Source of the DNA: Clostridium minihomine
Lineage (GTDB): Bacteria; Bacillota; Clostridia; Oscillospirales; Acutalibacteraceae
Assembly (NCBI RefSeq): GCF_900240385.1
Contig: NZ_OEQH01000004.1
Location: forward strand, 248,001 to 312,000
DNA length: 64,000 bases
Direction of reading: 5' to 3'
Shown: positions 54,445 through 61,242 of the stretch, one piece after another
How the letters are laid out: each line of letters opens with the position of its first letter
How positions within the stretch are numbered: the stretch's first letter is position 1
Position numbers and translations under genes: made by a program
The notes under the pieces: generated by a model
Database searches by the model: none
Seen by the model: only the letters and a program-made list of their open reading frames with translations
What the model was told of the DNA's origin: nothing

Positions 54445-54824
54445 ATTGATATTCCCTCCTGCGTTTGATTTCACGATTATTATCCGCAGGAAGGTTCTTC
54501 TTATTCATGTTCTTTGCCAATTCCACCATAGTTTGCCTCTGGATTTCTTTAACAACTGTTTCGGGGAATTCCGCTGTTCTTTTAAAAAACTTTGGTGTAT
54601 AATTAATTCCATAATGCCCAAGAATACCGAGTTTTGACGATTTATGAAATATAAAACCGCGATTTAGCCGCTTTTTTTGCTGTTTACAAGAATGCGGCCG
54701 CGGCTCAAATAAACTGAATCATCGCCCCTGCTTTCGCACAAGAGCGGCTGTGCCGCAAAAAATAGCCTGTCGCTTTTTATAAAAAAATAAAAAATTGATT
54801 TTTAAAAACAGGAGGTTTATTCCG

Positions 54825-55274
54825 TTGAAACAAACAAAACTTTTTTTCCCGGTTTTACTGGTGCTGATTATGGCACTGGCCATGGTCGGATGTTCCGCAC
54901 GCACTGCTGTGGACGCAGATGATTTCAAAGCATTGGCAGAAGGTGCCGGTTTTACCGTAACAGACGTAACCGATCAGCTGTTGGGCTCAAAAAGCTATTT
55001 AATCGCTTCCAATGAAAACGGCAACGAGCTGCACTATGCCGCTTTGGCAGACGATTCTTCGGCATTAAAGCTGTATAACTCTTTTAAAAGCAGTATCCAA
55101 ACCGGAAACAACAAACCTTCTAATGTGGATTCTACCCCTTATGCGAAGTATACCGTAACCAACGGGGAATTGTATTACCGGGTCAGCCGGGTAAACAACA
55201 CCGTAATTTACGGCAAGTATCAGGCAACGAATCAAAAGGCGCTGGATAAACTTCTCGATTCCATCCATTATTAG
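54825..55274 (+). CDS. Lipoprotein of unknown function
   Basis: A 149-residue protein with a lipobox LAMVGC near residue 20-23, then an alpha/beta domain (DDFKALAEGAGFTVTDVT) related in form to small DUF-type lipoproteins. TTG at 54825 is the start, nine bases after AGGAGG. The 380-base gap before it holds the spoVT upstream region and a GCGGC-TGT-GCCGC type stem, nothing more. Role unknown. Confidence 0.75.
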   Translation: MKQTKLFFPVLLVLIMALAMVGCSARTAVDADDFKALAEGAGFTVTDVTDQLLGSKSYLIASNENGNELHYAALADDSSALKLYNSFKSSIQTGNNKPSNVDSTPYAKYTVTNGELYYRVSRVNNTVIYGKYQATNQKALDKLLDSIHY

Positions 55275-56285: not shown

Positions 56286-56323
56286 CAAAAGCCTGTTTCC
56301 GTAAATGGAAACAGGCTTTTTCT
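56286..56323. terminator. Bidirectional terminator
   Basis: AAAAGCCTGTTTCC pairs with GGAAACAGGCTTTT around a six-base loop, with T runs both ways. It ends the dehydrogenase gene (+) and the Rnf-like cluster (-). Confidence 0.88.
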
Positions 56324-56325
56324 TA

Positions 56326-56919
56326 TTAAAATAATTTTCCCCCAGTAAAAGCGAAAAATGCCAGGGACAAAATCCCTACATACAGAAAAACAGAAGGCAA
56401 CCCCTGAAACGCTTTGGGCATATCCGGGTTTTTCAGCCGTTCCATTGCGTGGCACAACACCAGAGCCGCCAAAAAGAACGCGATCCCGGTTCCCAAGGCA
56501 TACCCGGTAATCTGCCAGCCGTTCATCCGGAATACCCTTTTTAAAAAAGGCATAGCCAAAACAATGCAGTTCATCGCCGAAGAAGAAAACACCGGCTCTA
56601 ATCTTTTGTATCGGGCAGAAAAAAACATTTTATAAATCATTGTGGCAATCAGATAGACCACTGCCACACAAACCGTAAAAATAGCCGGGCGATAAAAAGA
56701 GGCCGGACTGCTGGCAGGAACCAAATTATTCAGCGCGATTCCCATCCAGGCCGAAATTAAAGTAAACAGGCTGAGCAAAGCCACATAGGAAAACAGGGTT
56801 TTAGGACGCCTTGCCGCACGCAGCACACGGCTGAACCCAATTCCACCGGCGAAAATCAAATTCTGAGCCGTCAGTGCCAGAATCGTATACAAAAACAGCT
56901 GTGCAGCCATTTCCATCAT
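56326..56919 (-). CDS. rnfA: RnfA-like membrane subunit, one of two cluster cysteines missing
   Basis: A 197-residue, six-span protein. Its end (DMPKAFQGLPSVFLYVGILS) is clearly RnfA/NqrE-like, and MNCIVL keeps the second conserved Cys (118). At the first site, where RnfA has GICPFLG, this protein reads AGGIGFS near 25-30, with no Cys. In the known family these cysteines hold the intramembrane iron or [2Fe-2S] site together with RnfE. Its start overlaps the RnfE-like gene by four bases. Family certain, function uncertain. Confidence 0.88.
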   Translation of the reverse strand: MMEMAAQLFLYTILALTAQNLIFAGGIGFSRVLRAARRPKTLFSYVALLSLFTLISAWMGIALNNLVPASSPASFYRPAIFTVCVAVVYLIATMIYKMFFSARYKRLEPVFSSSAMNCIVLAMPFLKRVFRMNGWQITGYALGTGIAFFLAALVLCHAMERLKNPDMPKAFQGLPSVFLYVGILSLAFFAFTGGKLF

Positions 56920-57602
56920 ATTTTCGCCTTCCTTTCTGCATTCCGTTTCTGATTCCAATGCTGAATTAGGGCTGCTAAAATTCCAAGCAGTAAAAATCCG
57001 ATAAAGGGATATGCCCCTGCCTGAACAGTCCCGGTCATGCGGGCAATCAAAGAGCTCCAAATTTCACGAAGCATTGCCACTGCAAAAATCACGGCAGAAA
57101 AACCTGCCGTGCAGCCCAGGGAATCCATTACCACCGCCAACGTAATATGGGTGGGGGCGTAATCGTTGGCTCGGGACAACACAATGGAATTGCCGATCAT
57201 TAAAATCCCGTAAATTCCCAGCCCCGAAAAGGTTCGGGGGGCAAAGTGCTCTAACAAAGCGGCCGCAGGAAGATACATTAGTCCAGACAAAACCAGCGCC
57301 ACCGCAGGGCGAACCCAAACAGGCATTCGCAGCCAACCGCAAATCAGGCATACCGGCAGCATCATGAAAAGCATCATAAAAGACAGCGCTGCTGCATTTT
57401 CCATGGAATATCCTGCACCCACCACCGGGAACAACCCCAATGCGCCAAGTGCCACCGGGTTGCGGAATACCAGACCATTTAAAAAAATATTACCGCTTTC
57501 CCGAATCAGACGCTTTCTCACTGCTTTTTTTGAGCCCCTGGCGGCAACTGCCCGCCCACGGCCTTTCGACATCAGCGAAGAGTCTTCTTTTCGTTTACTC
57601 AT
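56916..57602 (-). CDS. rnfE: RnfE-like membrane subunit, both cluster cysteines missing
   Basis: A 228-residue protein: a basic N-terminal arm of about 35 residues, then six spans. GLVFRNPVALGALGLFPVVG (43-62) matches the canonical NPVLVQxLGLCP region but with Phe58 for Cys; MIGNSIVLSRA (135-145) matches VVNCxxLGRA but with Ser139 for Cys. The arm is longer than usual. It overlaps the RnfD-like gene by eight bases. Confidence 0.85.
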   Translation of the reverse strand: MSKRKEDSSLMSKGRGRAVAARGSKKAVRKRLIRESGNIFLNGLVFRNPVALGALGLFPVVGAGYSMENAAALSFMMLFMMLPVCLICGWLRMPVWVRPAVALVLSGLMYLPAAALLEHFAPRTFSGLGIYGILMIGNSIVLSRANDYAPTHITLAVVMDSLGCTAGFSAVIFAVAMLREIWSSLIARMTGTVQAGAYPFIGFLLLGILAALIQHWNQKRNAERKAKI

Positions 57603-58518
57603 TGCTCTTTCTCTCCCTTCCGGCCCGGAACGAGCATATGGCGCTGTCAATTACCGGTGACAGCGAGTTCATCAGCAAAACCGCAAAGCAGGCGGTCTGC
57701 TCAAAGATGCCGTAACGCCGCATCAGCATCAGCAAAACACCCGCCAAAGCGCCGTAAATCGCGCCGCCCAGCCGTGTATTGGGAGCCGTCACCGGGTCGG
57801 TAATCATAAAAACAGCGCAAAACAGCACAGAACCCGATAACAATTCATATTTTAAAGAGGTTAGCGGTGAAATCATAATCCGCGGAAACAACAGAGCAAA
57901 CAACCCTACCGCAACCAAAAAACAAAGCATAATCCGCCAGTTGATGGTTTTTTTTACGATCAGATATACCGCACAAGCCACAATGACTAGAATCGCGGTG
58001 GCACCAATCGCACCCCCGGCCGTTCCCCAAATCATTTCCGAGGGAATCATTTCGGGTTTAAACCCCGCTTTTAGTGCTGCAGCGGCGGAAGGCGCCGGAT
58101 AAGAAAACATTTCTTTGGGCCAAAAGGCTGTTACAAAGGCCACACCTGCCGCGGCCGGGTTAAACGGATTATGCCCGGTAAATCCAAAGGGGGCCCGCGC
58201 AATCAAAACCGCAAACATTCCGGCGGTAACCGGAAGCCACAAAGGCGCGCCCGGCGGCATCAGCATGGCAATGATTAGTCCTGTTACAATGGCCGAAAGC
58301 TCTGAAATATCCACCTGCCGCTTCGACAGCAGGCAAGCCGCAATTTCGGACAAAAAGCAGGCTGCTACAGACGCCAAAGCGATCTGAAGCACATGGAACC
58401 CATAATGCACCACAGGCAAAGGCAAGAGCAGCACCAAAGCCCAAAGCATATTTTTCATCATGATAGAAACCGTTTCTCCCCTGCGAATAAAGGGAGGTTT
58501 TTGGATGGTAAGCTGCAT
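57595..58518 (-). CDS. rnfD: RnfD-like membrane subunit without the flavinylation threonine
   Basis: A 307-residue multi-span protein. GHNPFNPAAAGVAF near 115-128 and MITDPVTAPNTRLGG near 238-252 are strong RnfD/NqrB marks. Between them, the SGATPL segment that normally bears covalent FMN on Thr is replaced by APSAAAALKAG (142-152) with no Thr. The start at 58518 has AAGGGG upstream. Family certain; flavin-binding is doubtful. Confidence 0.88.
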   Translation of the reverse strand: MQLTIQKPPFIRRGETVSIMMKNMLWALVLLLPLPVVHYGFHVLQIALASVAACFLSEIAACLLSKRQVDISELSAIVTGLIIAMLMPPGAPLWLPVTAGMFAVLIARAPFGFTGHNPFNPAAAGVAFVTAFWPKEMFSYPAPSAAAALKAGFKPEMIPSEMIWGTAGGAIGATAILVIVACAVYLIVKKTINWRIMLCFLVAVGLFALLFPRIMISPLTSLKYELLSGSVLFCAVFMITDPVTAPNTRLGGAIYGALAGVLLMLMRRYGIFEQTACFAVLLMNSLSPVIDSAICSFRAGRERKSNE

Positions 58519-58526
58519 GCCGGTGC

Positions 58527-59765
58527 CTATCCCCTTTCTTTCATTTCCATTGCGAGTGCCACTGATTCCGCCAAAGGAAGCCCCGAAGGACAGATGACGG
58601 AACACGCGTTGCAGGCACAGCACTTTTCTGCCCCAAGAAGCTGCTCCGAATCCGGGTGATTCCTATTGTGCAGCTGCCGGTGAAGGTACCACGGCATAAT
58701 TCCCACGGGACAGACTTCCTCACACCGGCCACAGCCGATGCAGGGAAAGACTTTTACTTTTTGCGTAGATTCGGGCAAAACCAAAAGGCAGCGCAGATCT
58801 GCCGTCACCGGCGCCGAAACATCCAAAAGCCGCTCCCCGGTAATGGGGGAACCGGAAATCACAATGGTTTTCTTCTTCCTGCTGCAGGCAGAAAGAAGCG
58901 CCTCTACCGGAGTTCCCAAAGGAACCCTTAGATTTTTCCACTGGGAAACACCTTCCCCTGCCACAGTCACTACCGTGCTAACCTGAGGCAATCCCTTTTC
59001 CACCGCATAGTGAAAAGCTTCCAGTGCCTGAACACCAATCAACCCGGGTTCATGCCCCTGGCGGCGAAGTTTCTTCATCAGGCTAAGACCAGCGGGATAT
59101 CCGCTGCCCCCGCTGACCAAAAGGCCGGCGGTTTCCCCAGAAAGCTGAGAACTATATCTGGCCCGCAATCTGCTGGCCACAGCAATCCCGGTTTCTTTGG
59201 CGCCACAAGCCTGCGCTGCCAAAGCCAAACCGGAACGAACCGCATCGGGGCTTTCTCGTAGCACTGCCAAACCGCTGCACACATAAGGCTCGTCATCTAA
59301 AACATTCGCACCCAACCAATTAATTTTTAGCCTTCGAAACCTTTTTAGCTTCTTAAACAAGGGTATCCCATCATATTCATCAATAATACCCGCGGCGGCC
59401 GCCAGCCGAATCAGCTGTTCTGGTGTTTGATCCCATTCGGGAGCCTGTATCGAAAGTTCTCTTTCTTCCGCTTCCCGTTGAATCACCGCACAATCCACCT
59501 GTCCGCGCACCGGATGGGGCATTGTTTTGACTGCCGACACCACGCCGCCCACGGGGGATGTTATTGCCACATGATTCCCCGGCATAGAGAGCTGAGAAAA
59601 GCGAAGCACCCGTTCCCCCGGGCGAACACAACGCTCGGCTGAGGTTTGGGCGCCGGGCAGCGGAACAAAAAGGATTTCGGGTGCCGAAAGTGCCTGAATT
59701 TTCGCCTTCATTGTATGGCTTTTTTTCTGTTCCAACCGAACTCCTGAGGAAAAAAATGAAATCAT
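58527..59765 (-). CDS. rnfC: RnfC-like iron-sulfur subunit with altered FMN/NADH site
   Basis: A 412-residue protein. Both [4Fe-4S] motifs are intact: Cys342, 345, 348, 352 and Cys382, 385, 388, 392. The glycine-rich FMN/NADH loop GLGGAGFPT of true RnfC reads IIDEYDGIP here (about 127-135), and NGAECEPY reads ANVLDDEPY (153-161). AGAGGTG seven bases before ATG 59765 sets the start. It opens the cluster. It may take electrons from a ferredoxin or other protein instead of NADH (inference). Confidence 0.87.
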   Translation of the reverse strand: MISFFSSGVRLEQKKSHTMKAKIQALSAPEILFVPLPGAQTSAERCVRPGERVLRFSQLSMPGNHVAITSPVGGVVSAVKTMPHPVRGQVDCAVIQREAEERELSIQAPEWDQTPEQLIRLAAAAGIIDEYDGIPLFKKLKRFRRLKINWLGANVLDDEPYVCSGLAVLRESPDAVRSGLALAAQACGAKETGIAVASRLRARYSSQLSGETAGLLVSGGSGYPAGLSLMKKLRRQGHEPGLIGVQALEAFHYAVEKGLPQVSTVVTVAGEGVSQWKNLRVPLGTPVEALLSACSRKKKTIVISGSPITGERLLDVSAPVTADLRCLLVLPESTQKVKVFPCIGCGRCEEVCPVGIMPWYLHRQLHNRNHPDSEQLLGAEKCCACNACSVICPSGLPLAESVALAMEMKERG

Positions 59766-59843
59766 TGGCAATCACCTCTTACAAAATAGCAGGCCCGTTA
59801 ATATTATAGTAGTGAAGCTCTTATTGTTATTGGGGGTGTCAAA

Positions 59844-60416
59844 TTGAAGACTAAAGCCTTAGATGCTTCCCACCTGCTGATTATTTTGACGGCGCGGGAA
59901 ACCCGAGCCCTGGGGCTGACCCAGGGATTAAGCTGGAACAGCCTGCATTGCCGCCTGACCATTGCCCGCATTTTTGCCGCGGCATGCGCCAGCACCAATT
60001 TTACCCTTCACCGAGATCAGGTGGCGATACGCGCGATGGCAACCGCGGATGGCGAAACGGTTCTCATGTTTACCGCGGTGGCTCCTGCCAAGGCGAAAAA
60101 GGGAGCTCCGCGTAAAATTTACAGAATCAAATGCTCCGGCCCGTATGTATACGAACTGGAAAATGCCGGGGATCTTCTGGATGTTCTGGAACATCTGTAC
60201 CGCATCAACACACTGGGCGGCTGCCAGCTGATCCGTTATGGAAATAGCTATCGACTCATTTTGTCCCCGTACTTTTCTATGAAGGACAAAACCGAAACCT
60301 TTTTAAAAGAATATGCCAAACTGAAAGGAATCGGAAAAACAGCGGCAGCTTTATCCCTGGAACATGGGGAACTTTTATCCCGAGACGCGGTAAATCAGGT
60401 GGGCAGCTGCCTTTAA
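59844..60416 (+). CDS. MecA-like adaptor protein
   Basis: A 190-residue protein with an N-terminal domain like that of MecA (an LTARETRALGL helix region followed by a beta pair) and a C-terminal part with LDVLEHLYRINTLGGCQLIRY recalling the ClpC-binding domain. It is shorter and more diverged than Bacillus MecA. The start is TTG at 59844, five bases after GGGGGTG. It is divergent from the rnfC-like gene; its stop overlaps that of rpe, convergent. Confidence 0.6.
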   Translation: MKTKALDASHLLIILTARETRALGLTQGLSWNSLHCRLTIARIFAAACASTNFTLHRDQVAIRAMATADGETVLMFTAVAPAKAKKGAPRKIYRIKCSGPYVYELENAGDLLDVLEHLYRINTLGGCQLIRYGNSYRLILSPYFSMKDKTETFLKEYAKLKGIGKTAAALSLEHGELLSRDAVNQVGSCL

Positions 60417-61051
60417 CGGCCCGCCGCCTGCAATTGCCGAATTGCCTCTGCGGGATCTTTTGCTTTAAAGACGCCTGTTCCTGCCACACAGATATCCACT
60501 CCTGCCCGGGCACAGTCCAAAATGGTGCTGGCATTGATCCCTCCGTCCGCCTCAATCAGGATGGAGGGGTTTTTGTCTTTTAAAACCCGCGCCTTCTGAA
60601 GCGGTTCCGGCATAAAGCTTTGCCCGCCAAAGCCGGGTTCCACCGTCATAAGCAGCACCATATACAGCTTGTCCAGATAAGGGAATAACTTTTCTGCGGG
60701 AGTATTGGGTTTTAAAACCATTGCCGGCTTTACCCCATGAGCCAGAATTTCCTGAATCGTTTCTTCGGGATCATCTTCGCACTCTACATGAAACGAAATA
60801 ATATCCGCACCTGCGGCGGCAAAATCAGCAATATAACGCTTGGGGTGCTGAATCATCAAATGCACATCAAAGGGCAGATTGGTATGGGGACGCATGGCCC
60901 CAATCACCGGCGCGCCAAAAGAAAGGTTGGGGACAAACAGACCATCCATCACATCCAGATGAACATAATCCGCCCCGCCCTCAGTAATTTTTTTCAGTTC
61001 GTCCGCCAGATGGGCAAAATCCGACGCCAGCATAGATGGTGCCACTAACAT
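60413..61051 (-). CDS. rpe: Ribulose-phosphate 3-epimerase
   Basis: A 212-residue TIM barrel. APSMLASDF at 4-12, HLDVMDGLFVPN near 32-43, and TVEPGFGGQSF near 136-146 carry the metal and catalytic Asp residues. It interconverts ribulose- and xylulose-5-phosphate. AAGGAGG sets ATG 61051. Its product feeds the transketolase coded at 17.7-19.5 kb. Confidence 0.97.
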   Translation of the reverse strand: MLVAPSMLASDFAHLADELKKITEGGADYVHLDVMDGLFVPNLSFGAPVIGAMRPHTNLPFDVHLMIQHPKRYIADFAAAGADIISFHVECEDDPEETIQEILAHGVKPAMVLKPNTPAEKLFPYLDKLYMVLLMTVEPGFGGQSFMPEPLQKARVLKDKNPSILIEADGGINASTILDCARAGVDICVAGTGVFKAKDPAEAIRQLQAAGR

Positions 61052-61242
61052 AATACAAAAGCCTCCTTGACCAGATCGCAGAACGACCGAATTGGCGCTG
61101 CGTTTTTCTTTGAGGGGAACCTTTTTGAGCCGTCCGGCCCTCAAACAGACTTTCCCCATCATAGCTTTTTTATTTTACCCCAATTTCCACGCTTTTTCAA
61201 GCGCTGCGTCTTTTCCGAAGAAAACACGTCCAAAATCAAAAT

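Follow-up and report, generated by a model that had tools for sequence, protein, structure and literature searches.

Three described systems come closest to the gene cluster treated here, which consists of four complete frames in the order C-D-E-A, related to RnfC, RnfD, RnfE, and RnfA, on the reverse strand at positions 56326-59765 of a stretch of Clostridium minihomine DNA (hereafter the window, 64 kb from a 2.7 Mb genome that is 97.7% complete). The subunits are denoted C', D', E', and A'. With the Rnf complex (RnfCDGEAB; structures 9eri of A. woodii, 7zc6 of C. tetanomorphum, and 8ahx of A. vinelandii) the cluster shares homologous C, D, E, and A subunits in the same gene order, the folds of D' and C', the iron-sulfur (Fe-S) motifs of RnfC, and the riboflavin residues of RnfD. 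It differs from Rnf in that RnfG and RnfB are missing, that the ligands of the AE1 [2Fe-2S] cluster, residue R67 of the Na+ site, and the flavin loop of RnfC are lost, and that C' or E'A' may be wholly missing from the cluster. The Na+-pumping NADH:quinone oxidoreductase (Na+-NQR; NqrABCDEF) likewise descends from a duplicated rnf operon that lost rnfB (PMC4014512); NqrB, NqrD, and NqrE are homologues, and NqrA resembles C' in the loss of RnfC's flavin site (PMC9588780). NQR, however, gained NqrF and keeps both NqrC, the homologue of RnfG, and the A/E cysteines, whereas the present cluster has no replacement for RnfB or RnfG, and its C' keeps the Fe-S motifs that NqrA lost. The NQR/RNF-like flavinylation clusters (PMC8238504) are also partial Rnf/Nqr systems around an NqrB/RnfD-like membrane protein. 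They differ in that RnfD is fused to NqrF and has a link to FMN_bind and ApbE, and they occur mainly in Actinobacteria and the candidate phyla radiation (CPR). None of this is found here: D' has no PF00175 match, no FMN_bind or ApbE gene is linked to the cluster, and no NqrF appears in the gene content of the cluster, the genome itself not having been searched for it. The cluster belongs to the Rnf/Nqr kind and brings no new fold or principle.

No description of a CDEA complex was found in the searchable literature. A paper that covers strain BL-6, a caproate producer, mentions in passing that no more than four Rnf genes turned up there, an incomplete Rnf (PMC7764203). We infer that these four are probably an earlier sighting of the present cluster. 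Below we argue that the Rnf reaction is very probably gone from the cluster and that another function is under selection.

The C-D-E-A Cluster Lacks RnfG and RnfB

The four frames of the cluster are as follows.

58527..59765, reverse strand: rnfC', 412 residues, ATG start; RnfC-like; AlphaFold model with a predicted local distance difference test (pLDDT) score of 88
57595..58518, reverse strand: rnfD', 307 residues; RnfD/NqrB-like; model pLDDT 87
56916..57602, reverse strand: rnfE', 228 residues; RnfE-like
56326..56919, reverse strand: rnfA', 197 residues; RnfA-like

An 8-base gap separates rnfC' from rnfD', rnfD' and rnfE' overlap by 8 bases, and rnfE' and rnfA' overlap by 4, in agreement with a preliminary description of the locus, which called the frames full length and tightly coupled. 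D' matches PF03116 of Pfam (E 9e-76) and E' and A' match PF02508 (E 1.5e-16 and 6e-20, respectively), each over the cut-off of the family, and C' contains RnfC_N plus two 4Fe-4S stretches. All four proteins score below the NCBIfam cut-offs for canonical rnfA, rnfC, rnfD, and rnfE.

The absence of rnfG and rnfB, claimed in the same description, holds: neither gene occurs within the window cluster or in any paralogous locus. The whole window genome encodes no other PF03116 or PF02508 protein and, as regards RnfB, gives no match to PF04060 and none to TIGR01944 that passes the cut-off. A second, canonical rnfCDGEAB operon was looked for in this genome and none was found; a supply of RnfG or RnfB from elsewhere in the genome was rejected by these searches. 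The sole FMN_bind protein adjoins the single ApbE on another contig (G000:C5 41993-43229, L074), among genes of FtsX/MacB-type ABC transporters. A DUF4418 protein accompanies the two at L074, a case of a flavinylated protein in a genome without canonical Rnf.

The window's genus (two genomes) and genera g77, g90, and g103 keep the cluster although no RnfB of theirs passes the cut-off. An FMN_bind (RnfG-type) protein is absent from four of the five genomes checked, namely G051 (F. sporosphaeroides), G077, G090, and G103, and no ApbE was found in G051. The genomes free of canonical Rnf are 93-99% complete, such that a missed gene is possible in one of them and unlikely in all. ApbE was considered as a marker for a flavin role of D' and rejected; it is uninformative on this point because it also occurs in genomes devoid of any Rnf. 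On the canonical side, a canonical-type rnf operon of genome G057 (L069 7126-8295) encodes an RnfG of 389 residues with two FMN_bind stretches.

Redox and Ion Sites of the Membrane Subunits

Residues are numbered as in A. woodii (PMC11889175), from alignments to solved chains, and 86 non-identical loci were scored, 16 of them canonical and 70 paralogous sets (a few incomplete). The four A/E cysteines, R67, N123, and D249 are present in every complete canonical set. In the window, F58 and S139 of E' replace both cluster cysteines of RnfE, and in A' the first cluster cysteine is missing and C118 is present, just as had been read from the letters; Ser stands in the place of the missing one. One of the four cysteines of the membrane [2Fe-2S] cluster is thus present in the window, and a Cys at the C118 position is found in only 9 of the 66 relatives scored. 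Across the paralogous sets, RnfE C108 (67 scored) and RnfA C25 (66 scored) are never Cys and are mostly Ser; it follows that at most two of the four [2Fe-2S] ligands remain. At RnfE C25 the window's clade has Phe or Tyr, whereas deeper branches have Cys; RnfA C113 is mostly Thr. No alignment was found that restores the cysteines. R67 of RnfE, which belongs to the Na+ gating ion pair, is a gap or Gly in nearly all paralogous sets and Arg in one. RnfA N112 is retained in every paralogous set with a complete gene.

The preliminary description also had RnfD without its Thr. The Thr is indeed absent and the surrounding motif is lost, but the position is kept as Ser144, which aligns with Thr156 of A. 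woodii, the bearer of flavin mononucleotide (FMN) (SAAAALKAG versus TPLALLKAG). Canonical RnfDs have Thr at position 156 in 11 cases and Ser in 5 (n = 16), and the change is therefore a Thr/Ser exchange with loss of the motif rather than loss of the position. Among the paralogous RnfDs this residue is Ser in 65 of 70 sets and Thr in 2, and the Ser is conserved even where no ApbE was found (G051, a carrier from the window's genus). The riboflavin residues are kept in the window as N120 and D241 (N123 and D249 of A. woodii). N123 is present in 45 of the 70 paralogous sets and D249 in 59; for the sets with a C', the counts are 42/52 and 45/51. One D'E'A' clade of family f1 has lost the riboflavin Asn along with C' (Asn in 0 of 14), and family f5 keeps the Asn although C' is absent. 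A linkage between loss of RnfC' and loss of the Asn thus holds in one clade, fails in f5, and was rejected as a general rule. The model of D' superposes on solved RnfD with a template modelling (TM) score of 0.84-0.85, followed by urea transporters at 0.46, a likeness noted earlier for RnfD itself (PMC9588780).

C' Keeps Both Fe-S Motifs Without the Flavin Loop

The reading of C' in the preliminary description was accurate on each point. Both [4Fe-4S] motifs (CxxCxxCxxxCP; residues 342 and 382) are intact in the window, and all eight Fe-S cysteines are present in every one of the 48 C' proteins scored. The GLGGAGFP loop, the FMN/NADH site of RnfC, is present in none of the 48; the window has GIIDEYDGIPLFKKL in its place, and DDEPY for ECEPY. 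A conserved motif, G-I-x-D-E-x-D-G-x-P-L, replaces the loop in C'. The AlphaFold model of C' matches RnfC chains with TM scores of 0.83-0.84. In the Caproiciproducens group (L036, L054, L072, L079, and others) RnfC' has lost most of the N-terminal barrel, with the core and both Fe-S motifs kept. The general statement that the complex has lost its redox sites is therefore right for the A/E cluster and the RnfC flavin loop, and too strong for RnfD, in which N120, D241, and the hydroxyl at the FMN position remain, and for the [4Fe-4S] motifs of RnfC.

Distribution, Phylogeny, and Selection

Among named records, those closest in D' (74% identity) come from Faecalispora jeddahensis and [Clostridium] sporosphaeroides; the cluster is also carried by Caproiciproducens, Caproicibacter, Anaeromassilibacillus, and Gallacutalibacter. 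We take the named carriers to be members of the Acutalibacteraceae (order Oscillospirales). An RnfD relative is present in 125 of 150 genomes of the window's family, and in many of them a canonical copy (about 30-34% identical) accompanies a window-like one (up to 71%). The canonical RnfDs examined belong to rnfCDGEAB operons located elsewhere. The window type, with the order C-D-E-A and without G and B, lies beside rpe across dozens of genera of this one family, and 36 of the 37 loci in a scan of named genomes are of the window type. A class-wide search with RnfA' in 392 genomes gave scores of at least 125 bits in just two families, the window's and a second one from the same order (f5), and no match above 111 bits outside the order. 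The f5 cluster is D'E'A', likewise adjoining rpe and a MecA-like gene.

In trees of D+E+A (FastTree), the paralogues of both families group together at the end of a long stem and are separate from the canonical sequences of both families; the support for the canonical/paralogous split is moderate (0.68) with f5 included and higher without it. For this reason the duplication most likely predates the split of the window's family and f5. Ratios of nonsynonymous to synonymous substitution rates (dN/dS) of C', D', E', and A' range from 0.05 to 0.25 in eight pairs, which speaks against decay; rpe in the same pairs gives values of similar order, 0.03-0.16. Three of the eight pairs are near synonymous saturation, and the five pairs with dS <1 agree. 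The cluster is one old paralogous clade under purifying selection.

Modular Composition

The cluster occurs in three layouts, C'D'E'A', D'E'A', and C'D', with D' common to all. D'E'A' without C' is found in two families and at least three branches. A search for C' in 19 D'E'A'-only genomes of the two families found none; canonical RnfC is present in these genomes except in G077, which has nothing RnfC-like. G077 has D'E'A' only, with no RnfC, RnfB, or FMN_bind protein, so nothing known from Rnf could supply electrons there. Conversely, genus g2 (two genomes) has C' and D', and its PF02508 proteins are just the two canonical ones. The g2 C'-D' pair lies near ssb (L121 5380-9080; L120 5972-8112), and the L121 C' reaches about 890 residues through an acidic, probably disordered tail. 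RnfE' of D'E'A' lineages (L049, L119, L128, and others) has long C-terminal extensions, in a frame of up to about 700 residues, with no Pfam match where scanned.

Genomic Context

The features that flank the cluster are as follows.

56287..56320, unstranded: terminator-like stem of 15 pairs, between the 3' end of rnfA' and a convergent 2-hydroxyacid dehydrogenase gene
59766..59843, unstranded: short intergenic region between rnfC' and the divergent gene, with a TATAAT-like box and a ribosome-binding site (AGAGGTGAT)
59844..60416, forward strand: gene for a MecA-like protein of 190 residues, divergent to the cluster; the similarity to MecA is weak
60413..61162, reverse strand: rpe (ribulose-phosphate 3-epimerase), a constant neighbour of the cluster

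The cluster had been described as bounded by terminators. This is so on the 3' side, where the stem lies; the 5' side is instead the short region shared with the divergent gene, and this region is near-identical in two other Faecalispora. The MecA-like gene stands divergently beside the cluster in both families and most layouts. No such gene was detected in Caproiciproducens and its relatives; there, rpe directly precedes rnfC'. Control by Rex, the NADH/NAD+ repressor, was tested because a Rex site has been predicted at rpe of Caproicibacterium (PMC9600882), and was rejected: no site was found near the cluster, and the paralogous loci score about as shuffled sequence does. In the window's sub-clade, a small conserved lipoprotein (54795-55274; GCSART lipobox, NGE...R motif, no Pfam family) is encoded convergently downstream of rnfA'. 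It was rejected as a substitute for RnfG, being convergent, limited to part of the clade, and devoid of a flavin motif and of conserved Cys beyond the lipobox.

Proposed Function and Alternatives

The electron route of Rnf is interrupted in four places, namely the entry through B, the A/E cluster in the membrane, the G shuttle, and the C flavin site, and some genomes hold no protein able to replace RnfG or RnfB. The known Rnf reaction would be impossible, since there is no ferredoxin-accepting RnfB, four-Cys AE1 cluster, RnfG shuttle, or RnfC flavin loop; judged from the sequences, ferredoxin:NAD+ pumping is effectively excluded. The conserved gene order, the single paralogous clade, the dN/dS values, and the retention of the cluster in genomes without canonical Rnf give strong support to the preliminary proposal that the complex has taken on a new job and is not decaying. 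The particular roles suggested with that proposal, a channel, a ferredoxin-linked sensor, or a partner of another protein, are candidates. A decaying operon would account for the missing rnfG and rnfB and the lost ligands, but frames that stay intact over dozens of genera in one old clade, with no frameshifts, the low dN/dS of all eight pairs, and a new conserved motif in C' refute it and leave it next to no probability. The idea that the cluster still works as Rnf, with RnfG and RnfB supplied by genes at other loci, is also refuted and scarcely more credible: most related genomes do encode canonical RnfG and RnfB, but the AE1 ligands are lost everywhere, RnfB is absent from the window genome, and four relatives lack an FMN_bind protein as well. 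Many genomes of the family carry both the cluster and a canonical Rnf, as would suit a role in assembling or regulating that Rnf. At least four genera, however, the window genome included, keep the cluster after canonical Rnf was lost, which refutes such a partnership as the sole role and makes it very improbable.

We tentatively propose the following mechanism. An old duplicate of the rnf operon, in the taxonomic order of the window genome, would have lost rnfG, rnfB, and the A/E iron-sulfur site and been retained for a different task. D', the constant subunit, with the RnfD fold related to urea and ammonium transporters, would be a membrane channel or transporter. A' and E' would be a non-redox inverted-repeat pair that shapes or gates D'. 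C', where present, would dock from the cytoplasmic side, and its pair of [4Fe-4S] clusters, probably together with the riboflavin of D', would sense or set the redox state of the gate instead of reducing NAD+. Taken whole, with D' as channel or transporter, E'A' assisting or gating, and C' as redox input, the mechanism falls somewhat short of an even chance; the perfect conservation of the C' cysteines holds our confidence there. Several observations weigh against it. No transport substrate or pore residue was identified, and the transporter-like fold is weak evidence, as all RnfDs have it whether or not they pump. Most D' proteins keep the riboflavin ligands and the FMN-site Ser, a pattern that fits electron transfer as well as gating. 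Finally, g2 has C'D' without E'A', so E'A' is not an obligatory gate.

The main rival to a channel or transporter is a one-way electron wire, in which electrons would pass from a cytosolic donor (ferredoxin or flavodoxin) through the [4Fe-4S] clusters of C' and the riboflavin of D' across the membrane to a soluble or other outside acceptor, with A'/E' as scaffold. The invariant Fe-S motifs (48/48) and the riboflavin ligands of the C'-bearing sets are what a wire would need. The order of contact from the Fe-S clusters of RnfC to the riboflavin of RnfD in Rnf (PMC9588780), the joint loss of the riboflavin Asn and C' in the f1 clade, and the existence of C'D' without E'A' fit as well. Several genomes, however, have no FMN_bind acceptor and one has no ApbE, D'E'A' exists without C' in at least three branches, and f5 keeps the Asn despite the absent C'. 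We regard the wire as unlikely, though worth serious consideration; transport is preferred because D'E'A' without C' recurs in those branches of two families, and sequence alone does little to tell the two readings apart. The complex could also perform no transport and be a redox or iron-sulfur sensor with its output to some other system, for instance through the MecA-like neighbour. Fe-S motifs that are intact without an NAD+ site would agree with this, as would the retention of the divergent gene in both families. That gene is undetected in a whole sub-clade (Caproiciproducens and relatives), no subunit has a signalling domain (Pfam), and D'E'A' has no Fe-S subunit, which makes a sensor improbable.

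Implications

It is possible, although doubtful, that the Rnf membrane module became a redox-independent transporter or channel with D' as core, usually together with E'A', and that C' was left as a redox gate in most lineages, in which case a new class of membrane complex would have arisen from a respiratory pump. The D'E'A' and C'D' layouts are natural variants without redox centres and bear on the contested ion path, which has been placed in RnfD (PMC9588780) or in RnfA/E (PMC11889175). Genomes with the cluster are likely annotated with Rnf subunits. True Rnf is absent from the window genome, and for gut bacteria and caproate producers pathway models may wrongly assume ferredoxin-driven ion pumping.

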